Shown here in pieces: positions 23,351-56,643 of a DNA stretch of 64,000 nt. Origin of the DNA: Amia ocellicauda (Eukaryota > Chordata > Actinopteri > Amiiformes > Amiidae); assembly GCF_036373705.1 (NCBI RefSeq), contig NW_027102723.1, positions 62,001 to 126,000 on the forward strand, in the 5' to 3' direction. The notes under the pieces were generated by a model, which saw nothing but the letters and a program-made list of their open reading frames with translations, was not told the DNA's origin and made no database searches. Made by a program: the position numbers and the translations under genes. Every line of letters starts with the position of its first letter. The first letter of the stretch is position 1.

Positions 23351-23547
23351 AAAAACGGAGGGAAAATTCGCTTGCGCCGAACGGGGTCGAGAGATCCGCT
23401 GTGACGCAGGAGTGCGAGAGGACTCGACACCACCGAGCACGGGCGCGAGAGGGAGAGATACCCACGGTGTGAGAAACCGCCCGCGACGCAAGCACCAGAT
23501 GCCCGCAAGGACAATGGGAACCGGCGCGCTACCGAGAAACTGACCAA
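23351..23547. other. GC-rich linker between array and U6, nothing recognised
   Basis: CpG-rich single-copy sequence. Short frames on both strands have no recognisable domain. Confidence 0.6.
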
Positions 23548-23651
23548 GATATGGAACGCTTCACGAATTTGCGTGTCATCCTTGCACAGGGGCCATGCAA
23601 ATCTTCTCTGTATCGTTCCAGTTTTATTATACGTATTGCCGTCGCGAACAC
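23548..23651 (-). ncRNA. U6 spliceosomal snRNA-like gene (variant or pseudogene)
   Basis: About 104 nt read on the minus strand. Bases 39 to the 3' end match vertebrate U6 almost exactly, including the ACAGAGA box and the 3' stretch ending CGTGAAGCGTTCCATAT. The 5' stem-loop is diverged, but a C-G pair has become U-A (positions 4 and 16), so pairing is kept. The catalytic AGC triad reads TGC (GATTTGCATGG for GATTAGCATGG). No run of four or more T follows, so normal Pol III termination is missing. The flanks suggest a genuine gene-type copy rather than a retroposed one, since a distal element sits about 220 bp upstream. Probably a decaying or divergent U6. Confidence 0.85.
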
Positions 23652-24332: not shown

Positions 24333-24354
24333 TGAGAAATGACAATCGGTCGCC

Positions 24355-24417
24355 TGCCCCGTTTAGCTTCCGAGATCTGACGAGATCGGGCGCGTTCAGG
24401 ATGGTGTGGCCAAAAGC
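24355..24417 (-). pseudogene. Half 5S rRNA gene at array edge
   Basis: Only the 5' half of a 5S gene (about 63 bp, read on minus) is present; the 3' half, with the C box, is replaced by unrelated sequence. It marks the left end of the 5S array. Confidence 0.85.
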
Positions 24418-24473
24418 AGAGAGGCCTGGCTGCATGATGTCGCTTAAAGGCTGGTGGGTATTGACGGAACTTC

Positions 24474-24504
<31 letters not shown>

Positions 24505-24637
24505 TGGAGGGAACAATATCAGTGCAGCAAAGGGTGTTGTAAGTAGCGGGATACGTGTAAAATTCTTCAATTATATCTCCTCCAGACAGAAAGAGAGTAT
24601 TAAGAGCTACGATGAAGTTACCCAAGTGACGTAAAAA

Positions 24638-24755
24638 GCTTGCAGCACCTGGTATTTCCAGGAGGTCTCCCATCCAAGTACTGACCAGGCCCTGACCCGT
24701 TTAAGTTCCGAGATCTGACGAGACGGGGTGCGTCCAGGACGGTGTAGCCGCAAGC
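24638..24755 (-). rRNA. 5S rRNA gene, copy 1
   Basis: 118 nt, terminator T5 at 24633-24637. The C box is conserved, but the A-box region is altered (GGAACTTAAACGGGTC) and the 5' third has several changes, so it is likely a weak gene or pseudogene. Confidence 0.88.
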
Positions 24756-24965
24756 CGAGAGGCCTGGCTGCATGATGTCTCTTTAAGGCAGACGGGTGTT
24801 GACGGAACTTCCAGCAAATAAAAAAAGAAAAATGGAGGGAAAAATATCAGTTCAGCAAAGGGTGTTGAAAGTAGCCGGGTACGTGTACATTTCTTCAATT
24901 ATATCTCCTCCAGACAGAAAGAGAGAATTAAGAGCTACAATGAAGTTACCCAGGAGACATAAAAA

Positions 24966-25083
24966 GCTTGCAGCACCTGGTATTTCCAGGAGGTCACCCA
25001 TCCAAGTACTGACCAGGCCCTGCCCCGTTTAGCTTCCGAGATCTGACAAGATCGGTAGCGTTCAGGACGGTGAGGCCGCAAGC
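24966..25083 (-). rRNA. 5S rRNA gene, copy 2
   Basis: A box matches the array consensus. Scattered changes near the 5' end (GCTACCGATCTTG) and one in the C-box region (GGGTGACC). Confidence 0.9.
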
Positions 25084-25302
25084 CGAGACGCCTGGCTGCA
25101 TGATGTCTCTTAAAGGCTGGCGGGTATTGACGGAACTTCCAGCAAAAAAAAAAAAAAAAAAAAGAAAAATGGATGGAAAAATATCAGTGCAGCAAAGGGT
25201 GTTGAAAGAAGCCGGGTACGTGTACAATTCTTCAATTATATCTCCTCCAGACAGAAAGAGAGAATTAAGAGCTACAATGAAGTTACCCAGGAGACGTAAA
25301 AA

Positions 25303-25420
25303 GCTTGCAGTACCTGGTATTTCCAGGAGGTCTCCCATGCAAGTACTGATCAGGCCCTGCCCCGTTTAGCTTCCGAGATCTGATGAGATCGGGCGTGTTC
25401 AGAACGGTGAGGCCGCAAGC
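25303..25420 (-). rRNA. 5S rRNA gene, copy 3
   Basis: A box intact. One change in the C box (CTTGCATGGGAG) and ACACGCCCGATCTC in helix III. Confidence 0.9.
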
Positions 25421-25636
25421 CAAGAGGCCAGGCTGCATGATGTCTCTTAATGGCTGGCGGGTATTGACGTAACTTCCAGCAAAAAAAAAAAAAAAATGAA
25501 AAATGGAGGGAAAAATATCAGTGCAGCAAAGGGTGTTGACAGTAGCCGGGTACGTGTACAATTCTTCAATTATATCTCCTCCTGACAGAAAGAGAGAATT
25601 AAGAACTACGATGAAGTAACCCAGGAGACGTAAAAA

Positions 25637-25754
25637 GTTTGCAGTACCTGGTATTTCCAGGAGGTCACCCATCCAAATACTGACCAGGCCCTGCCACGAT
25701 TTGCTTCCAAGATCTCACAAGATTGGGCGCGTTCAGGACAGTGTGGCCGCAAGC
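25637..25754 (-). rRNA. 5S rRNA gene, copy 4, most decayed
   Basis: Changes in both promoter boxes (GGAAGCAAATCGTGGC in the A box, AGTATTTGG in the C box) and in the terminal stem (GCAAAC). Probably a pseudogene. Confidence 0.85.
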
Positions 25755-25972
25755 AAAGAGGCCTGGCTGCATGATGTCTCTTAAAGGCTGGCGGGTATTG
25801 ACGGAACTTCCAGCAAAAAAAAATAAAAATAAAGAAAAATGGAGGGAAAAATATCAGTGCAGCAAAGGCTGTTGATAGTAGCCGGGTACGTGTACAATTC
25901 CTAAATTATAACACCTCCAGACAGAAAGAGAGTATTAAGAGCTACGATGAAGTTTCCCAGGAGACGTAAAAA

Positions 25973-26090
25973 GCTGGCAGCACCTGGTATTTCCAGGAGA
26001 TCACCCATCAAAGTACTGACCAGGCCCTGCCCCGTTTAGCTTCCGAGATCTGTCGAGATCGGGCGCGTTCAGGACGGTGTGGACGCAAGC
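25973..26090 (-). rRNA. 5S rRNA gene, copy 5
   Basis: A box matches consensus. The terminal stem is GCGTCC.../GCCAGC, so end pairing is weakened. Confidence 0.89.
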
Positions 26091-26301
26091 CAAGAGGGCT
26101 GGCTGCATGATATCTCTTAAAGGCTGGCGGGTATTGATGGAACTTCCAACAAAAAAAAAAAAAGAAAAATGAAGGGAAAAATACCAGTGCAGCAAAGGGT
26201 GTTGAAAGAAGCCGGGTATGTGAATAATACTTCAATTATATCTCCTTCAGACAGAAAGAGAGTATTAAGAGCTACGATGAAGTTACCCAGGAGACGTAAA
26301 A

Positions 26302-26419
26302 GCTTGCAGCACCAGGTATTTCCAGGAGGTCTCACATTCAAGTACTGACCAGGTCCTGCCCCGTTTAGCTTCCGAGATCTGACGAGATCGGTCGCGTTCA
26401 GGATGGTGTGGCCGCAAGC
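26302..26419 (-). rRNA. 5S rRNA gene, copy 6
   Basis: Consensus A box; the C box has two changes (GAATGTGAGACC). The T run after the gene is four bases, shorter than in other copies. Confidence 0.89.
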
Positions 26420-26629
26420 CAAGATGCCTGGCTGCATGATGTCTCTTAAAGGCTGGCGGGTATTGACGGAACTTCCAGCAAAAAAAAAAAGAAAAATAGA
26501 GGGAAAAATACCAGTGCAGCAAAGGGTGTTGAAAGTAGCCGGGTACGTGTACAATTCTTCAATTATATCTTCTCCAGACAGAAAGAGAGTATTAAGAGCT
26601 ACGATGAAGTTCCCCAGGAGACGTAAAAA

Positions 26630-26747
26630 GCTGGCAGCACCTGGTATTTCCTGGAGATCTCCCATCCAAGTACTGACCAGGTCCTGCCCCGTTTAGTTTC
26701 CGAGATCTGACGAGATTGGGCGCGTTCAGGACTGTGTGTCCGCAAGC
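26630..26747 (-). rRNA. 5S rRNA gene, copy 7
   Basis: C box intact (AGTACTTGGATGGGAG). One A-box change (GGAAACTAAACGGGGC), and CCAGC at the 3' stem. Confidence 0.89.
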
Positions 26748-26964
26748 CGAGAGGCCTGGTTGCATGATGTCTCTTAAAGGCTGGCGGATATTGACGGAAC
26801 TTCCAGAAAAAAGAAAAAAGAAAAAGAAAAATGGAGGAAAAAATATCAGTGCAGCAAAGGGTGTTGAAAGTAGCCGGGTACGTGTACATTTCATCAATTA
26901 TATCTCCTCCAGACAGAAAGAGAGTATTAAGATCTACGATGAAGTTACCCAGGAGACGTAAAAA

Positions 26965-27082
26965 GCTTGCAGTACCTGGTATTTCCAGGAGGTCTCCCAT
27001 CCAAGTACTGATCAGGCACTGCTCCATTTAGCTTCCGAGATCTGATGAAATCGGGCGCGTTCAGAACGGTGTGGCCGCAAGC
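26965..27082 (-). rRNA. 5S rRNA gene, copy 8
   Basis: C box intact. The A-box and IE region is changed (AAATGGAGCAGTGCC). First in transcription direction; about 90 bp upstream the array runs into LTR-element sequence. Confidence 0.88.
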
Positions 27083-38026: not shown

Positions 38027-39918
38027 TAAGAACATAAGAACATAAGAACATAAGAAAGTTTACAAACGAGAGGAGGCCATTCGACCCATCATGCTCGTTT
38101 GGTGTCCATTAATATCTAAGTGATCCATGGATCCTATCCAGTCTATTTTTAAATGTTCCCAAACTTTCAGCTTCTACCACTTTCCATCTTGAATGCCTTG
38201 AAGCCCAATTTCCATTTGTGTCCCCTGGTGTGTGTGTCCCTGCTGATCTGGAAAAGCTCCTCTGGTTTGAGGAACCTTTCATGATTTTGAAGACTTGGAT
38301 CAAGTCCCCACGTAATCTCCTCTGTTCCAGGGTGAAAAGGTTCAGTTCCCTCAGTCTCTCCGAGTAGGACTTTCCCTTCAGACCTGGAATAAGTCTGGTT
38401 GCTCTCCTCTGAACTGCCTCTAAAGCAGCAATATCCTTCTTGAAGTGTGGTGCCCAGAACTGTACACAGTATTCCAGATGAGGTTTAACTAGCGCATTGT
38501 ACAGTCTTAACATTACTTCCCTTGTTTTAAATTCTACACTTTTGACGATATACCCTAGCATTCTGTATGCCTTTTGTATTGCTTCCCCACATTGTTTGGA
38601 TGGAGAAAGTGAATCCACATAGATTCCTAGGTCTTTCTCATGCATTACTTCATCTAGATCTGTACCTCCCATAGTGTAATTATAGTGGACATTTTTGTTT
38701 CCTGCATGTATTACCTTGCACTTGTCCACATTGAATTTCATTTGCGAGGTGTCAGCCCACAACTGAATTTATCTAAGTTCCTCTGAATAGCATGTGCTGC
38801 CAAGATTGTATCTGCTGAGCCACCTATTTTAGTATCATCTGCAAATTTGACAAGGTTGCTAAGTATCCCAGAGTCCAGATCATTAATATAGATTAGAAAA
38901 AGCAAAGGCCCTAGTACTGATCCCTGTGGAACTCCACTAACAACCTCACTCCAGTTAGAAGTGACTCCTCTAATCTGTTTCCTATACATCAACCAGTTCA
39001 TAATCCATCTACTTACATTACCCTGAATGCCTACAGCTTCCAATTTGAGGATCAGTCTTTGGTGTGGAACCTTATCAAAAGCTTTTTGGAAATCTAAGTA
39101 TATCATATCATATGCTTTCACGTGATCTACAGCTGCAGTTGCATGTTCAAAAAAATTTATTATGTAAGTAAGACATGATCTGCCTCGTCTAAACCCAAGT
39201 TGACTATCTCCAAGAATATGGTTTTCATTGAGATGCTCCTCTTATTTTCTGTCTAATCATTTTTTCCAACATTTTACAGGTGATGCAGGTGAGACTGATT
39301 GGTCTGTAATTTCCTGGCTCAGTTTTGTCCCCTTTCTTGTGGATTGGTATGAAATTTGCTGTCTTCCAGTCAGTGGGAACATCCCCTGTTCTAAGTGTCA
39401 TTTGGAATAATCGAGTTAGCAGCCTATACATAATTTCCCTCATTTCTTTAAGTACTGTTGGAAATATCCCATCTGGCCCAGGTGATTTGTTTGATTTTAA
39501 TTCTGCTAGTCCCTTTAGTACCTCCTCCTCATTTATCCTGATCTCTCTTAGGGTTTGACTGGATTGATTGTCAACCTGTGGCATGTCATCTGTTTCTTCT
39601 TTTCTAAAAACCTCTGTGAAATACTCATTTAGAATATTTGACACATCTTGTTCGTTTTCCAAGATACCTCCATTTTTGCTCTTTATCTGTTTCACCTCCT
39701 CCTTAATTGACCGCTTGCTGTTGTAATTTTGAAAAAAGCTCATTGCATTGGTTGTAGCTCCAAGAGCTATGTTTCTTTCTATTTCCCTCTTTGCTTTCCT
39801 GATCCCTTTCTTAAGATCTCTTTGCAGCTCAACATATTCTATGTATTTTGTTTCATCACCATCCCTTTTGTATGTGCTATACAACATTTTCTTCCTCTTT
39901 ATATTTTTTTGCATGCCT
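38027..39918 (-). mobile_element. CR1-type LINE, 5' truncated
   Basis: Minus strand, ending in an (CATAAGAA)n tail (seen from + at 38027-38058), typical of CR1. ORF2 is split over three frames (39914-39225, 39121-38738, 38762-38109): SNKSPGPDGIFPTVLKE, GNYRPISLTCITCKMLEK, YLDFQKAFDKVPHQRL, SGVPQGSVLGPLLF, KFADDTKIGG, then the C-terminal VQRRATRLIPGLKG. Two frameshifts are evident. 5' truncation at a GTAT microsatellite. Confidence 0.9.
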
Positions 39919-39924
39919 CTGGTT

Positions 39925-39958
39925 TGTATGTATGTATGTATGTATGTATGTATGTATG
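39925..39958 (+). repeat. (GTAT)n microsatellite
   Basis: Perfect tetranucleotide tract at the boundary between the truncated CR1 and the LTR B fragment. Confidence 0.9.
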
Positions 39959-40224
39959 TGTGGAAGGAAAGTTAGAATTTCTTTTCTCACAACTGTTTTT
40001 CTTTCTTGTATACTTAAGAAAGATAAGGTCAAGCTAGAAGGTCAGGAGGCCATAAGGTAGTTTGATTTCTCTTTGTTATTTACAATGAGAACCTTGGAGA
40101 CAATGTCAAACAGAATGACCTACGTGCCTGTTCCCTAATACCATGTGTAGACCTATGAACTCTGTTCTATAATGATATATGTTCTGCTTAGTTAGCCTTT
40201 AAGATAACATAGTAATGACTTTCT
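39959..40224 (+). mobile_element. LTR, family B, partial copy 1
   Basis: Fossil; matches the first part of the solo LTR at 36343-36770. Both partial copies (this and 48111-48375) stop at the same point and are followed by the same GTAT/TA tract, so they descend from one truncated source. Confidence 0.8.
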
Positions 40225-43470: not shown

Positions 43471-43651
43471 TTATTCTGATATTTTGATGCAAAGATTAAA
43501 TCTGTGAGTGATAACGCTACCAATAATAATAATAGAATTCTATACATTATGTATATCCATATATAATTATTAATAGTAATATAATATCAGTTGTAGACCA
43601 CAAATTAAACTTTCTTATGTAGAAGAGACAAGTATAATAAAATATATTAAC

Positions 43652-46600
43652 ATGTCCTTTAAAATAAGCAGTTGGAATATCCAGGGTTTACGCTCCTCAA
43701 CTTTTGGAATGAAGAGCACAGACCCTGAACTGATCAACACTGTAAATAGTTCAGATGTTTTCATTCTTGTAGAGACTTGGTGCTGTGCAGATATGTCTAC
43801 ATCCTGTCCCAATGTATACAGGGAGCTGATTGTGCCCTCCTATAAAAAACCCAAAGTCAGGTGTGGCAGGGCCTCGGGGGGGATTATCGTGTGGTACAGG
43901 GAGGAGCTCCGAGCAGCCCTATGCCCAGTACAGAGAGGAGACACACACCTGCGGTTGAAAATCAGAAAAGACACCCTACAAAATAACACAGATATATACC
44001 TATGTGCAATTTATATGCCACCCGCAGACTCCCCCTACTATAATGAGGAAGGCTTTCAAGAGATTCAAAAAGAAATCTGCCACTTCCAGACCCTGGGCTC
44101 TGTACTGCTGTGTGGCGATCTCAATGCCAGGACTGGCAGAGAGATGGACTACATCAATGCAGAGGGGAACACACACCTGTTCTGAGACTCCCCGCTGTGC
44201 CACACACACACCTCCACACTGAGACACAGCCAGGACAGCGTGGTAAACAAGAGCGGGAAGCAGGTAGTGCGCCTATGTAAAAGCCTGGGTCTATATATCA
44301 TCAATGGCAGGACCAGGGGGGACTCTCTGGGGAGATTCACATACTGCTCGGCTCTGGGCAGAAGTGTGGTGGACTACGCCATAAGTGACCTGGACCCACA
44401 AGCCATCAATGCGTTTATAGTCAGACAACAATCTCCACTATCAGACCACAGCCAAATAACACTTTACCTAAAAAGATCAGCGCAGCCACAAATCAGAGCC
44501 AAACTTCCCACAAAACTGGTCTCCCTGCCCCCCAGTTACAGATGGTCAGAGCCCAGCACAGAGAACTACACAAGAGCCCTGAATAGTGATGAGATTGAAA
44601 ACATGTTAGACAGATATCAATCCTCACACTATCAAATAAACCAAAACGGAATAAACTCAGCCACCAAAACATTGAATGAAATATTTGAAAGACTGGCTTT
44701 AAAATGAAACATTAAAACAATTAAAAACCAAAATATAAAATCGTCTAAAAGAAAAAAAGAACAGTGGTGTGACCAGGAGTGTGAAACTTCTAGGAAACAC
44801 CTGAGACATCTCTCCAACACTAAACACAGAGAGCCCGACAACCAGGCCAGCTACTGCCAGGCCCTGCGGCACTACAAGCAACTCTTCAGGAAGAAAAAAG
44901 ACCACTATATGGGCAGAATAAATACCCCAAAAACAAAAAATGAAATACCAATTCAAAATGGAGAAATCTGGAAAACACACTTTGAAAAACTTTACCAAAA
45001 TGTTGAAAACAATCCAAACCCAGAACAGGTTAAAATATTAAAAAACCTAAATAAATTGGAAGAAATCATTAAGAATAATCAAAATCCCTTAGATAACCCA
45101 ATTACAAAATACAGGACCTAAAACATCAACTCAAAATCCTCAAACCCAGGAAAGCCAGCGGCCCCGACAGCATCAGCCCTGAGATGCTGAAGCACAGCAG
45201 CCCGCAGCTGCAGGAGGTTCTGCTCAAACGCTTTAACCTGGTGCTGAGAGCCGGGTGTTTCCCTGAGGTCTGGAATCAAGGATTGATCACCCCGATTTTT
45301 AAAAGTGGAGACAAATTAGACCCCAATAACTACCGGGGCATCTGTGTGAGCAGTAACCTGGGGAAGGTGTTCTGCAGTATCATCAACGCCCGGATACTGG
45401 CCTTCCTTACCGAGCACAGTGTCCTGAATAAGAGTCAGATTGGCTTCCTACCAATACACCGCACAACCGATCATATTTACACTCTACACTCCCTCATAAA
45501 TAAATATACCCAAAACAATAAAGGAAAAATATTTGCCTGTTTTGTAGACTTTAGAAAGGCATTTGACTCAATCTGGCACAAAGGACTATTTTATAAACTT
45601 CTACAGAGTGGTGTAGGGGGTATAGTTTATGACATCATTAAATCAATGTATTCTGAAAACAAATGCGGAGTTCAAATTGGCAACTCAAGAACAGAGTTCT
45701 TCACTCAGAGGCGGGGAGTGAGACAGGGCTGCAGTCTGAGTCCAACACTGTTCAACATCTACATCATCGAGTTGGCCACAGTGTTGGAGCAGTCTGACGC
45801 CCCCGGCCTCACTCTCCACGACACAGAGATCAAGTTCCTGCTCTACGCAGACGACCTGGTGCTGCTGTCGCCCACAGAGCAGGGGCTTCAGCAGAACCTG
45901 GCTCTGCTAGAGCAGTACTGTCAGAAATGGGCCCTGGCAGTCAATCTGGACAAGACCAGAGTTATGGTTTTCCAGAAAAAAGCCCGATCTCAGGGAAACA
46001 GGTACTGCTTCACTCTGGGCAGCACTGTATTTGAGCACTGCACCAGATACAACTACCTTGGCCTGACCATCAGTGTGTCAGGGAGCTTCAGCCTGGATAT
46101 AAACGCATTAAAAGACAAGGCACGACGGGCATTTTATGCCATAAAGACACGATTTGGGAAAACAACAATACCAATAACTATTTGGATTAAAATATTCAAC
46201 TCCATCATCTAACCAATCCTGCTATATGGGAGCGAAGTGTGGGGTCCCCTCATGAACCTCAATAACAAAAATTGGGACAAAAGCCCCACGGAAATATTCC
46301 ACCTAGAATTTATTAAAAACATCTTACACGTACACAGAAACGCCCCCAACATCGCCTGCAGAGCCGAATTAGGACTCTTCACTCTGCACAAGAAAGAGCA
46401 GCCAAGTTCTGGCTGCACCTAAACACAGCAGAGACCCAGTCCTAACAATACAAGGCTCCACTGAGCAACCACCTCTCCCCAGACAAGGACCCCCTTGGCC
46501 GGCTGGCTCTGAGGCTCACAGAGCCCGAACACACAATGACCAAAACAACAACAATTGGGAAAATTGACATGTACCTGAAAAGCAAATACACAAAAGAATG

Positions 46601-47030
46601 GAGACACGAATTAGAATTACAAAACAAATTAGAATGCTACCGGGCCCAGAATAGAAACATTACATTGGCTGAATACTTAAAAATCCAAAATATAAAAGAG
46701 AGACAAAATCTAACTAAATACAGGCTCACTGACCACAGCCTCGCCATTGAAAAAGGCCGCAACAGAAAATTCTGGGTTGCCAGAGAAGAGCGGCTGTGCA
46801 GCCAGTGTGACCTAGGGGAGGTCGAAACAGAGGCGCATTTCCTGCTGTCCTGCCCTAAATACACAAAAATCAGGGAGACATACTTTAAAATATTCAAAAT
46901 GCAAATCCCTGAGTTCAACATGATCCCCGATTGCTGCAAACTCCCCGTCCTGCTGGGAGAGGAGGAGCGCACTGCCATCTTAGCAGCACAATATGTATCC
47001 ACCTGCCACAGCCTGCGAGATAGTGTGTAG
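43652..47030 (+). pseudogene. LINE ORF2: endonuclease, reverse transcriptase, C-terminal Cys/His motif
   Basis: APE-type endonuclease: [119 protein letters not shown] (YADD catalytic box). C-terminus: LCSQCDLGEVETEAHFLLSCPKY, a CX2C...H...C motif. Stops at 44183 (TGA), 44705 (TGA) and 46210 (TAA), a frameshift near 45110, and a further break near 46420, so the element is not active. Confidence 0.88.
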
Positions 47031-47283
47031 ACACCAGCCTGTGGGACTCCATTTGCAAAACAAAATAAAAACAGTGATTTTTCTGATGTCATGACACAAA
47101 TTTTGATACAAACAACAAATATGGTTTATATTCTACGTAATTTTATTTCAATGTGTATGATATTTGTTCCACTGAATCTTGTATTGCAATGTTTTGTCTT
47201 GTTTGATAGAACATTTGTATCTGCTTTGGCAATATTGTGATAGATCATGCCATTAAAGCACCTTTGAATTGAATTGAAATGAA

Positions 47284-47301
47284 TTGACAGACAGACAGAC
47301 A

Positions 47302-47339
<38 letters not shown>

Positions 47340-47340
47340 G
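47284..47340 (+). repeat. GACA/CA microsatellite at LINE 3' end
   Basis: (GACA)n then (CA)n directly after the LINE tail. Confidence 0.9.
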
Positions 47341-48038
47341 AGCCAGCCAGCCCGCCAGCCAGCCAGCTCAGCGATGACATCACGAGCCTCTCTCAGCTGA
47401 CTGCTATGACATCACAGAGCACGTACATTCCGTTGCTTGCCGTCTGTCAACCACTCAGTCACTGCCAGCCAGAGTGGCTGGCTGGCTGGATGGGGGGGCT
47501 GTTTGCTGCTTCTGCGTACCTTAGCAAGCTTATTTGGTTGACCGGCCTTCCTACTCCTCTGCCCACATGCCCACCTATGCCCGATCTGCTGTTCACCTGG
47601 ATCACAGCTCCGCCCCAACAAGGCAGATCCTCCCAAAAATGGTACAAACTGATTCACGTTCCCCTCCACGGAAAACTTTAGCCCAAAATAAGGGACACAT
47701 TCTGTAACAACATAATGGATGCCCACCCAACCTGTGACAAAACTGAGAAAAAAGAAAAACGCTCAGTCCTCCTGGGGGAGGGACACACAGCCACCCTGGC
47801 TGCCCAATATGTCAGCGCCTACCACAGCCTGAGGGACACAGTGACACATGAGCACCGGCTGTAATTATAATGTAAATACTCGTTTGTAATGCATGTCATT
47901 GTATTTCAAAAAAGGAATCTGGAAATAGTAAACCTATTTTCTTTATTTGTATGTATTAAAGATCACCTTTTATTACATTTTCTTTTTCTGTACTTCATTA
48001 CATCTTATTGTGATTCATAATTCTATTATTTATTTTCT
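47341..48038 (+). repeat. 5'-truncated LINE 3' end, copy 2
   Basis: Duplicate of 40432-41117 with few differences, again preceded by a CA tract and followed by a GTAT tract. The two copies bracket the near-complete LINE. Confidence 0.78.
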
Positions 48039-48110
48039 GTATGTATGTATGTTTGTATGTATGTATGTATGTATGTATGTATGTATGTATGTATGTATGT
48101 ATGTATATAT
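48039..48110 (+). repeat. (GTAT)n microsatellite
   Basis: Long perfect tetranucleotide tract between the LINE 3' end and LTR B fragment 2. Confidence 0.9.
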
Positions 48111-48375
48111 GGAAGGAAAGTTAGAAATTCTTTTCTCACACCTGTTTTTCTCTCTTGCATACTCCAGAAAGATAAGGTCAAGCTAGAAGGTCAGGAGGCC
48201 ATAAGGTAGTTTGATTTCACTTTGTTATTTTAACGATGAGAACCTTGGAGACAATGTCAAACGGTATGACCTACGTGCCTGTTCCCTAAAACCATGTGTA
48301 GACCTATGAACTCTGTTCTATAATGATATATGTTCTGCTTAGTTAGCCTTTAAGATAACATAGTAATGACTTTCT
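48111..48375 (+). mobile_element. LTR, family B, partial copy 2
   Basis: Fossil; same portion as 39959-40224 and same flanking tracts. Confidence 0.8.
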
Positions 48376-48422
48376 AGCATGTATGAATGTATGTATGTAT
48401 ATATAAATATATATATATATAC

Positions 48423-48489
<67 letters not shown>

Positions 48490-48499
48490 TACGTATATA

Positions 48500-48551
<52 letters not shown>
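48376..48551. repeat. Long TA microsatellite
   Basis: About 150 bp of mostly alternating TA with ACGTATATA and GTATATAC interruptions; near-palindromic, so it could extrude a cruciform. Confidence 0.9.
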
Positions 48552-48553
<2 letters not shown>

Positions 48554-49014
48554 CAAAACAATAAAGGAAAAATATTTGCCTGTTTTGTAGACTTTAGAAA
48601 GGCATTTGACTCAATCTGGCACAAAGGACTATTTTATAAACTTCTACAGAGTGGTGTAGGGGGTCAAGTTTATGACATCATTAAATCAATGTTTTCTGAA
48701 AACAAATGCAGAGTTCAAATTGGCAACTCAAGAACAGAGTTCTTCACTCAGGGGCGGGGAGTGAGACAGGGCTGCAACATCTACATCAATGAGTTGGCCA
48801 CAGTGTTGGAGCAGTCTGACGCCCACGGCCTAACTCTCCATGACACAGAGATCAAGTTCCTGCTCTACGCAGACGACCTGGTGCTGCTGTCGCCCACAGA
48901 GCAGGGGCTTTAGCAGAACCTGGCGCTACTAGAGCAGTACTGTCAGAAATGGGCCCTGGCAGTCAATCTGGACAAGACCAGAGTTATGGTTTTCCAGAAA
49001 AAAGCCCGATCTGT
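48552..49014 (+). pseudogene. Internal LINE RT fragment between TA tracts
   Basis: Matches 45508-45992 of the LINE ([19 protein letters not shown] to [11 protein letters not shown] and MVFQKKAR), with a small in-frame deletion after RQGC and one TAG at 48911. It starts and stops inside ORF2, with TATATA on both sides and no 3' tail, so it did not arise by normal target-primed insertion. Confidence 0.88.
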
Positions 49015-52876: not shown

Positions 52877-53007
52877 TTGTAGATTAGACAGAGAAGGGAA
52901 AGAAATGTAATGATTGTATGTTGATGCTTTCATCTTCGCCAGAGAAGGACTGGTGCTTCTATTTCTAGTGCTTTCACAAAAGGCCCTCTCTTCCTGGCCT
53001 GCTCTGC

Positions 53008-55114
53008 TCAGGCCTGACCGACGCGTGACAGGACACTTTCGCTGGAGTTCGCTTCACGTCGGTTGTACATCTTGATCATGAGCTTCTGCTGCACCTTGAT
53101 CTGCTCACGGTGCACCTCCTGCTCTGCATCCTTGTGGACCTGGTCGATTGTCTTAGGACCCTGGTCACCCCTCCTGGGCACCCAGTTATCCTGAAGAAGA
53201 GGAGAAAGAGTCAGTGACCATGGTAGAGAGAGAGAACGAGAGGCAGACAGGGATTGGGGGGCTGGGAAGCTGAAAGCAAGGAAGGTTTCTATTCTCCCAA
53301 CACTCATGACTTACTCTTCTCAGGTCCAAGACGTCCTGCAGCATGAAGCGGATTCAAGAGGAGGTCTTCCTTTCTTTGATGATCTGCTCCATCTGGCTGA
53401 AGTACTGGTCCATGCGGGGCTGGTGAAAAGGTCGATTAGAAAACTGAGCAGACAGCAGGTACAAAAGTAACTTTATACCACCAAGTGAAGCAGCATTCCT
53501 TCAAGAAGGCGTCTGCAGATGCTCAGAAACACTTATTCAGACCACTGTCAATAGGCCTCATCACGTTGCTGGATGTTTAGCCAGGGCTCAGTCTGGCACG
53601 ACGGCCGGAACTGCCTTACCTTGGCGGTTTCCAAGTCCAGGTCTTTGCCGATAGTGGAGAGGAGTAGGCACAGGCACTCCAGGGACTCTTCGTGGTTCTT
53701 CAACAGCTTGACGATGCAATTGTGCATGGTGGTCTTTATCAGCATCTTCACCTTGAACAGCTCCCCAATGAACCTGATGTTGCCTAGTGAGCGCTGCTGG
53801 GCCTTGCACTTGGCCTCCTGCAGCTCGTCACGTAGACGCTGCCACTCCTCACCCTGCGCACACACGGCACTTAATTACATACTATCATAACAGAGGCATG
53901 ATTCTACAAGCATTTTCAAGCACTGGAAATCAGTTTTTTTTTTTCAGACTTTTTCCAGACATCCAGACTAGCGTACAAACCCTGTTTATATTTAAAATAA
54001 ATACTTGGGTTGTCAGTCGATTCAAATTACAATAAGTGTTACAGTCTTTAAGTGGTTGTGCCACACAGTTATACTTTAATAAATACTAGTCATTGATAAT
54101 ACAGTAGAACAATGCTGAATGGGAAAGGAGAAAAATATATAAATGAATATTAAATAAAAAACACTAAATCATTATAATTAACACTATACAAGCGCAGGGC
54201 TGCTCAGTTTGACTGATTTAATGTTAATTACTCTGGGTTCCTGAATACTCTGTGCAGACCCGTTCTTTACTTTTACTAAATATATGTATCAAATATGCCT
54301 AAGAAGCGTTTTAGCTGTCACGATCTCTACCTCACCTACAGTCTACAGTCTTTCATGTGCTTGAAAAACACACGCATTGTATAGCATTACAGGTGTAGTC
54401 AGATTGAGTGATTAAACACTTGTTTCTTTAGTTTTGATTGTGCTGTGGACGCCTTCAGAAAACAAAGTGCTTTGATCTTATTTATACCAATCATTTGAAT
54501 GTTTTATGTTCATATTTAAATGTAAATACTACTTATGCTAGTTTTATTTGATTGTTTGCCTTTCATTATACCACAGCATTTAAAGAGCTATCGGCTGTTG
54601 TAGGTGGTTCAAAAACTCTGTGATTCTACTGTTAACCGTATATCACTATTATGACATTTTTGTTTTTTAAATCAGCTCGATTAAATAGAAAAAATGTTGA
54701 TCGTCAATTCAATTAGTTGATTCATAGACCCGATTAATTGATTAATCGAGGCAGCCCTAAAAATACGTTCAAATGTTCCTACCACCAAGGATGCATCCAG
54801 CAACTTCTGCTTCTTCTCCAAGACCTCGTCTCCATCCTCCTCCGTCTCAAACTCCTTCTGGCAGCGGTTCAAAAGCAGAGAGCGGAAAGGCACCGTCTCT
54901 CCCGGCTTGTCAACGGCTGGGACTTTGAGCTACAGAAAGGGGAGCAGGAACAACATAAACCCTAAGCAAGATGGTGTGCTAGGCTGGCTTCCAGCTTTAA
55001 TAGGTATCGGAGTGAAAACTCTTGATATGCGCATCACAAGACAGGCATCTGCTAGTCCATTCAAAACTGAACTCCCACAAATTACAATTCCAGAGCTAAA
55101 CAAATCTGATCCAT

Positions 55115-55185
<71 letters not shown>

Positions 55186-56643
55186 TATTTCCTAGCAGAT
55201 GTCCTTGTCCAATATAAGAGCAATACAAAGTGCAATAATACAGAGCAGTTCAAGTCGTAATACATTTTACAAGTTCAAATTTACACAAATAGCATCTTCA
55301 CAATCCTCTACCATTCCCTCCCTCCCTCTTTCACTTCACTCTCCCCGTCACCCTCCTTCTCTCACCCTCAGAAGGCACTGGCACATATTGGCGTATGAGG
55401 CGGAGAAGTTGGGTTCGGAGACGGCCTTCTCGAAGATGAGCTCCATGACACCCTGGAGTCGCTGCTCCGTGTCGATGGTCAGCTCGTTCACTTGACGCAT
55501 CCACGGCTGGAACATCTGTGGGGTCAGCTTGTTCAGAATACCACTCACCCTGCGGAAGAGCTCCTGTTGAAGGGGAAAGGGGGGAGGAGGGAAGGAAGGA
55601 AAAAGAGTTAGTTCTGCAAACCTCGGCCAAGTCCGTGTTTTTATTTGTTCTGGAGAGGTGGGTGCATGTGAGCGTACTCAGCCCCTCAGTTCATCTTCTC
55701 CATCAGTAGAGGTCAGTGGCCCAGACACCAATGCACTACAAATAGATCATCAGTGGGGCTCCAATTTTACCCACAATCCCCTTTACTAGACTAGCAAATT
55801 ATTATTCCCACCCCCCCAAACATGAACCGTGTCCTCTGCTCCTACATACCTGGGTCTTAATGACCTCGGGGTCATCACCCACTGTGGGAGCCTTCTTAAT
55901 TGTAGGCAGGTAACACACATACAGTCATCTAAATAACAATCGCAATTAGACAGCAGTTGACAAAAAGTACAAATGAGACAAATGTCCAAGATCAGCATTA
56001 AACAGATCCATCAGAACAATGCAGGTAACCATCTCAATCAGAAGGATTTATATATAAAAACATGAAAATAAAACTCTAGGGTCTCCTAGACAAGCAGGGG
56101 GCTGCATACCTTAGCCAGGACCACATCGCTAATGCGGAGTTTCTGCAGCCTGTCACAGATGAACTCTAAGTCCAGCAGGAACTGACGCTCATTTTTCTCC
56201 TTCTCATCAGGGACATAATTACACCTGCAACATAATTTGAAAGCAACAACATTTCCACAGGAGTCTTGGTTGTGCCGAGGATTACGAAATAATGAAAGCA
56301 ATACATTTTAGACGTCGGCTCAAAATCCCTACCATTCGGCGTTGAAATGACCCAGGTTTATTTTGTATTTATACCATATCCAGTTCACCATATTCACATC
56401 CTCTCATACAGTAATCAATAAACGAGAATAATGGTTCAATTTGTAGCTACACACCTATGCTTAGGAGCAATTCACACGATCTTGTACTGGTGAAGAACAT
56501 TATTATTCACAATATGTCATTTAAAAAAATGTAGGCTATACATACCCTGCTGCAATGAAAAGAAAAAGATAGATTAATGAAACGGCCTACCTGAATCTTG
56601 CGGAGTCTTCAAGACAAAACTTGAAGTTTGCAATCGCTGCCAT
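53008..56643 (-). CDS. Short eIF4G-like gene (MIF4G domain only), eight exons, one in-frame stop
   Basis: Paralogue of translation initiation factor eIF4G. Exons on minus: 56591-56643, 56110-56224, 55850-55894, 55366-55563, 54786-54929, 53620-53853, 53315-53419, 53008-53190; all GT/AG, all phases agree, 358 codons. Residues 19-56 match the eIF4G eIF4E-binding region and ISDVVL segment, but the YXXXXLL motif reads NERQFLL, so the key Tyr is lost. Residues 72-298 are MIF4G ([24 protein letters not shown]-like [35 protein letters not shown]), which in eIF4G binds eIF4A and eIF3/RNA. Residues 299-358 ([16 protein letters not shown]) end in a private C-terminus. PABP-binding and MA3 regions are absent, as in a cut-down DAP5-type factor. 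Codon 285 (53354-53356) is TGA where eIF4G has Arg (CGA), so it is a recent pseudogene or a polymorphic null. Confidence 0.88.
54015..54757. mobile_element. Probable hAT remnant in intron 5 of the eIF4G-like gene
   Basis: The right end reads GATTAATCGAGGCAGCCCTAA, a common hAT terminus; the left end GGGTTGTCAGTCGATTC near 54015 is a fair complement. Flanks contain AAATAC on both sides, but the exact 8-bp duplication is unclear. Confidence 0.45.
55118..55230 (-). repeat. (ATT)n microsatellite and SINE/L2-type tail in intron 4
   Basis: About 65 bp of ATT repeat, then TTTCCTAGCAGATGTCCTTGTCC, the reverse of the fish SINE/L2 tail module. Read on minus, the ATT tract is the SINE's own tail. Confidence 0.7.

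Follow-up and report, generated by a model that had tools for sequence, protein, structure and literature searches.

Does the bowfin Amia ocellicauda possess a working eIF4G paralogue reduced to the MIF4G domain? The question arises from an eIF4G-like locus in a stretch of 64,000 nucleotides (the window; C88:62001-126000 in the 988-Mb assembly, where C numbers denote contigs, L numbers fetched loci and P numbers database proteins). An earlier note, made from the letters, had described this locus as eight clean exons of 358 codons, starting just before the eIF4E-binding motif and ending just after MIF4G. The analysis reported here leads, with a probability of about 0.8, to another answer: the bowfin has a multicopy family that derives from the middle of eif4g1, and the locus is one of its decayed members, most likely no longer working, which was multiplied as a passenger. 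Most likely, the window copy makes no useful protein.

Damage to the coding blocks of the window copy

When rebuilt from the letters, the gene fell into eight exon-like blocks (56643-53008, minus strand), and the borders inside it were all GT/AG. The rebuilt product matched eIF4G1 (E=2e-128) and eIF4GII (1hu3, E=2e-119) in the PDB. MIF4G starts in exon 4 (55366-55563), which gave both PDB and Pfam matches, continues through exons 5 (54783-54929) and 6 (53620-53853), both with PDB matches, and has its last part in exon 7 (53315-53419), which was placed by the rebuilt gene and by alignment with a sister copy on contig C20. However, exon 7 is broken within MIF4G by an in-frame TGA at codon 286 (53356-53354), 39 nt upstream of the exon end, which had been read through in the earlier model. 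The open part thus comprises 285 amino acids and covers positions 2-181 of the 203 in the MIF4G profile, the domain being complete only past the TGA; the Pfam MIF4G score was 158.9 bits up to this first stop and 178.8 bits if read past it.

Exon 8 (52930-53190) was modelled as ending in a stop at 53010-53008. This stop sits at an Arg position of the Amia relatives, and it is also present in the C20 sister copy and is therefore the older one. Comparison with two predicted bowfin proteins, P0121 and P0122, placed stops of the window copy at two Arg positions and extended the homology beyond the modelled end, to 52933.

Of the linker that joins the eIF4E motif to MIF4G and spans approximately 90 residues in relatives, almost nothing remains in the window copy. 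What is left of the linker exon (55850-55906, minus strand) has lost its 5' part and its acceptor at a deletion junction (55906-55907) where 343 nt are missing relative to the C20 copy. The acceptor AG used for exon 3 in the earlier model (ATTAAG; exon at 55894-55850) is former coding sequence. Read against its relatives, the short linker is not ancestral, the deletion having taken most of the linker exon. Besides the nonsense codon, we read three amino-acid changes as derived in the window copy: in exon 6, Trp and Leu each replacing an Arg, and in exon 3, Lys replacing Gln.

Exon 1 as modelled (56591-56643, minus strand) is probably real, since its DNA aligns with six other loci and the ATG is retained in five of them; it is the first exon common to the copies of what we call family A. 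Exon 2 (56110-56224, minus strand) holds the region of the eIF4E-binding motif, YxxxxL followed by a hydrophobic residue, which reads NERQFLL in the window copy and YDREFLL in the canonical bowfin gene (L009). With five long eIF4G proteins as queries, neither an MA3 nor a W2 exon was found in the 64-kb window, nor any exon for the sequence ahead of the eIF4E motif, of which the queries included 89 to 180 residues; the PABP site, farther towards the N terminus, lay outside them. A processed retrocopy was ruled out by the introns, which stand at places homologous to those of L009 and of the family loci.

Taken together, the earlier description was right about the eight exon-like blocks, the loss of the motif tyrosine and the origin by gene duplication rather than retroposition, and the search with the long eIF4G queries revealed no further exons in the 64 kb. 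On the other hand, the 358-codon frame is closed at codon 286, the short linker results from a deletion, and homology continues through the exon 8 stop.

The same lesions in near-identical copies

A 461-nt piece spanning exons 7 and 8, compared with the genome, gave 40 matches in 40 candidates scored (109 at first look). Among these were 23 near-identical copies, the window included: 18 identical over the 461 nt, three with one mismatch and two at 98%. They lie on contigs C38, C43, C82, C88, C90, C99, C109, C115, C142, C203, C249, C350, C377, C383 and C385, and six contigs hold more than one copy (up to three each), in the same orientation and at a spacing of 94-152 kb. The TGA is present in 23 of 23, as established for 18 by identity over the piece and for the five others by reading them; in two of these five, a further 7 nt are missing where exon 7 begins. 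The 343-nt deletion, with the same junction sequence, was found in all eight further copies read. As a side observation, the copy spacing on C38, C43, C90, C377, C383, C385 and others suggests a very large tandem array over many short contigs.

The sister copy (C20:35008700-35014700, L051) aligned with the window over approximately 5.5 kb in two blocks, at 95.0% and 96.5%, split by the 343 nt missing in the window, and it retains the linker exon (L039). The C20 and C351 copies, 98% to the window, carry CGA in place of the TGA. C20 has defects of its own: a TGA with which exon 2 opens when exon 1 is spliced to it as in the earlier model, and a loss of 4 nt at the exon 7 donor. One family member lost the 343 nt and gained the nonsense codon, and this damaged copy was multiplied afterwards, its copies standing in direct orientation 94-152 kb apart. 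The repeated unit, of which the pieces of the eIF4G copy were traced, would measure approximately 100 kb and include the tRNA, U6 and 5S genes of the window.

A bowfin family derived from eif4g1

MIF4G matches were recorded exon by exon at 170 places in the assembly, some of them in canonical eIF4G genes; 150 of 285 candidates were scored, and this exon count is a lower bound. Loci were also fetched through SNORD66, a C/D-box snoRNA of the eif4g1 introns, a route that under-samples copies devoid of it: 42 of 42 such loci had eIF4G-type exons, including L009. Among the matches listed, no SNORD66 accompanied the MIF4G matches at C4:54.58-54.59 Mb, C29:0.94 Mb and C5:36.73-36.74 Mb, nor those on C24, where L002 resembles a canonical eIF4G. 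Canonical bowfin eif4g1 is the C7 locus (L009 with L052), where the motif reads YDREFLL, the linker is of the canonical type and the exons extend far beyond MIF4G, as far as residue 704 of a bird eIF4G1.

The genome holds dozens of eIF4G1-derived copies, and those sampled have, as judged from their exons, a first exon of their own, an eIF4E motif without tyrosine, the linker and MIF4G. Exon 2 was found in 12 family-A loci, the window among them, and in none of the 12 does the motif have its tyrosine. The snoRNA lies before exon 4 in family A and between exons 4 and 5 in family B. Within the layout of family A, the window copy has the first exon and the SNORD66 intron, with the linker exon mostly deleted. 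P0121 and P0122 each contain two MIF4G domains and no other Pfam domain.

Disrupted frames occur in several copies, for instance in the linker of L026 and L027 and in exon 4 of L018, and the pattern looks like the birth and death of a multigene family. The copies read over all exons were those of the window and C20, and no copy can be named as fully intact. In L010 (C22:20942297-20945373), exons 4 and 5 adjoin, the intron of the other family copies being absent.

Selection on a MIF4G exon

Selection was assessed in 18 family-A copies arranged as nine disjoint sister pairs, by a simple Nei-Gojobori count. Left out of family A were L009 as the canonical gene, L027 and L032, in which exon 4 is disrupted, and the divergent L049 and L050. 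Exon 4, within MIF4G, showed 36 nonsynonymous and 31 synonymous changes, a ratio of 0.32 (p=5e-6 against the site ratio), while the ratios for exon 5 and the linker were 0.54 (p=0.03) and 0.66 (p=0.08), respectively. All-pairs ratios for exon 4, in which branches are reused, agreed (0.40 in A and 0.30 in B). The count makes no correction for transition bias, which renders the ratio somewhat too low and weighs against our reading of the family; nonetheless, the exon 4 signal probably does not stem from bias alone, because the linker and exon 5 were less constrained under the same mutational bias. At the level of these substitution counts, the data show purifying selection on this MIF4G exon between sister copies. 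The family is a real eIF4G variant, and it is probably kept for its protein.

SNORD66 as a possible reason for the copies

A different account would be that the copy is kept as a non-coding host of SNORD66, whose exons decay while the snoRNA guides methylation of 18S rRNA, amplification raising its dose beside tRNA, 5S and U6 genes. The snoRNA of the window, in the intron before exon 4 (55758-55682, minus strand; Rfam RF00572), scored 64.1 bits against a gathering score of 32, with the C, D', C' and D boxes and the guide present, and its sequence was identical in eight other near-identical copies read, in which the coding part is broken. In humans, SNORD66 is hosted by EIF4G1 and targets C1272 of 18S rRNA, according to passages of PMC7072173. 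Genome-wide, at least 58 matches were obtained, in 58 candidates scored, all full length and at 59.9-83.5 bits. Between the family and canonical eif4g1, the divergence was 0.099 for the snoRNA, as against 0.194 and 0.219 for the two intron parts; the snoRNA was therefore constrained before the family arose.

This constraint is not apparent within the family, where the snoRNA changed at the speed of its flanking intron (32 of 693 sites vs. 72 of 1661 in sister pairs of family A, p=0.74). Between the window and C20, 3 of 77 snoRNA sites differ vs. 1 of 85 and 1 of 106 in the flanking intron. The same rate comparison took in 21 rows, L009, L027 and L032 among them, and these inflate its exon 4 mean. 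Further, only 7 of 20 family-A copies had an intact C box together with an intact D box, compared to 14 of 20 family-B loci (six distinct sequences), and the D' box pattern was found in 18 of 20 and 0 of 20, respectively. We consequently regard retention as a snoRNA host as improbable, and SNORD66 dosage as the main cause was rejected on the intron-like rate within the family.

Two further observations concern the snoRNA. A change of the D box from CTGA to GTGA is common to the family-A loci L027, L028, L040-L043 and L045-L047, a subgroup that may make no stable snoRNA; and canonical eif4g1 has two SNORD66 genes in successive introns, approximately 0.6 kb apart (C7:29096723 and 29097327). Other Rfam candidates in the gene (TUG1_3, CrcZ and DUF2693) fell below their gathering scores and were discarded.

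Relatives in databases

The protein search returned 737 proteins at E<=0.001. Among the best 120 listed, the nearest included models named 'IF4G1 factor, partial' from Amia calva and 'eIF4G1-like' from A. ocellicauda, at up to 87% identity. In a quick tree of 57 rows, picked by lineage and label from 141 kept, the window copy grouped with Amia rows alone, in a set of 10 (support 100), at 92% to P0007. All bowfin copies formed one set of 15 rows (support 85), apart from the TRIM-linked MIF4G rows of salmonids, pike and smelt and of carp.

MIF4G proteins linked to TRIM were found in cod, two carps, salmon, blackfish and smelt (P0017, P0036, P0117, P0126, P0177 and P0215). In a Pfam scan of eight proteins, six of the six TRIM-like picks combined MIF4G with the TRIM coiled coil, five of them with RING and/or B-box, and a PRY piece was seen once; more teleost proteins bear the same TRIM and MIF4G labels in precomputed Pfam annotation. 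Similar to the bowfin family, these fusions and the short eIF4G1-like teleost models place MIF4G outside a full eIF4G, with several proteins per lineage, but the TRIM-linked rows fall outside the Amia rows in the quick tree. Short or tandem MIF4G proteins of the eIF4G1-like type were also noted in tarpon, Diretmus, Gouania, Sebastes and eel (P0001, P0012, P0013, P0020, P0123 and P0201), of which P0012 retains a YDRDFLL motif.

With regard to known MIF4G proteins, eIF4G2/DAP5 has MIF4G without eIF4E binding, as would the window copy, but retains MA3 and W2, and PAIP1 has PABP-binding motifs. PAIP1 is, like the predicted product of the locus, a small MIF4G protein, with a sequence that is only distantly similar (6yxj, E=8e-10). 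The match to DAP5 was likewise weaker (4iul, E=5e-42), the window sequence being far closer to eIF4G1/3. With eIF4G1 and eIF4G3, the locus shares the MIF4G sequence, the exon order and the role of SNORD66 intron host, the last as in bowfin eif4g1 and, from the passages on SNORD66 cited above (PMC7072173), human EIF4G1; it differs from them in the missing motif tyrosine, the lack of an MA3 or W2 exon in the 64 kb and the stop inside MIF4G.

Among the papers listed by the literature searches, taken by title and the start of the abstract, no description of the bowfin family or of TRIM-MIF4G fusions was met. Genome-wide TRIM papers on two carps, as listed, contain 0 mentions of MIF4G, a term search of a trout TRIM paper likewise did not return it, and passages of a sea-lice salmon paper (PMC12294397) name a nucleolar MIF4G protein only. 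The assertion that no such gene has been described thus holds for the papers listed by these searches, beside the unnamed eIF4G1-like models of Amia and teleosts.

Surroundings of the locus

An RNA-gene scan detected, elsewhere in the window, tRNA genes, an 89-nt one and tRNA-Lys(TTT), in seven tandem units of approximately 3.65 kb (308-22152, plus strand), a match to U6 snRNA (23545-23651, minus strand) and nine divergent matches to 5S rRNA at 45-95 bits (24341-27082, minus strand). Of 47 5S copies scored across the genome, the best (about 112-117 bits) are located on C8, chiefly at 7.4-9.8 Mb, and on a number of small contigs. Open frames at 38109-39971 and 43580-48913, which separate the RNA genes from the eIF4G-like copy, were labelled from their translations as LINE-like and reverse-transcriptase-like.

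Discussion

Several observations weigh against reading the window copy as a dead passenger of a MIF4G-only family. Its internal splice borders are still GT/AG, splicing of exon 2 to exon 4 would stay in frame, and its SNORD66 is intact by its boxes. A transcript bearing the TGA could escape nonsense-mediated decay and yield a 285-amino-acid product, because the TGA lies so close to the end of exon 7. The genome-wide DNA search covered one piece of the repeated unit, exons 7-8, and on other contigs RNA genes were covered through the scored SNORD66 and 5S candidates. In addition, the first unit of P0121 continues after MIF4G into a stretch that resembles the start of MA3, and, going by this predicted protein, not every family member need be MIF4G only.

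Another account is the proposal of the earlier note, a working minimal eIF4G paralogue, whose product would end at codon 285 or be completed by stop-codon readthrough. In its favour, the splice borders are sound, as is the frame outside the stop, and the MIF4G exon of the family is under selection. However, the stop within MIF4G where C20 and C351 have an Arg codon, the linker deletion and the additional frameshift in two copies make such a gene very unlikely at this locus, every copy tested being damaged. For the family, the proposal survives in outline, given the many intron-bearing copies, the tyrosine missing in the 12 family-A loci with exon 2, MIF4G as the sole Pfam domain of P0121 and P0122 and the purifying selection on a MIF4G exon. 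That TGA and deletion are assembly errors, or the copies unresolved duplicates or haplotypes, we dismiss almost entirely: the copies do lie on many short contigs and C351 looks like a second C20 haplotype (equal match score, and differences from the window that resemble those of C20), but the same lesions recur in separately placed copies, up to three per contig, with small differences among them.

We therefore retain the view of the window copy as a decayed passenger within a family that is itself probably functional. Segments of eif4g1, their introns bearing SNORD66, are present in many copies, and the family-A copies sampled have a first exon of their own and a changed eIF4E motif. We infer that intact members make a small MIF4G protein that holds eIF4A, and perhaps RNA, but neither eIF4E nor PABP; such proteins may act as an eIF4E-independent scaffold or as competitors of eIF4G1.

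Core translation factors are normally kept at few copies, and TRIM5-cyclophilin A fusions are known to bait retroviruses. A wider and distinctly speculative idea, which we hold to be improbable as it stands, is that MIF4G was repeatedly excised from eIF4G in ray-finned fish and amplified, and that several teleost lineages fused it to TRIM ubiquitin ligases. The products would be baits, in the manner of the TRIM5 fusions. Their targets would be viruses that take over eIF4G by way of MIF4G, as norovirus VPg does (PMC4703368). The bowfin family, in which MIF4G is under selection, contact with eIF4E is presumably lost and copies are born and die, would then represent this in its simplest shape, with the window copy as a dead member.

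The locus is a warning that a spliced model which looks intact by eye may be a pseudogene. If the reading of the family is true, the bowfin would hold dozens of MIF4G offspring without eIF4E contact, part of them under selection, as natural variants for the role of MIF4G without cap binding, and these could tell whether such a protein works as a regulator, as a dominant competitor or as a bait for viruses.

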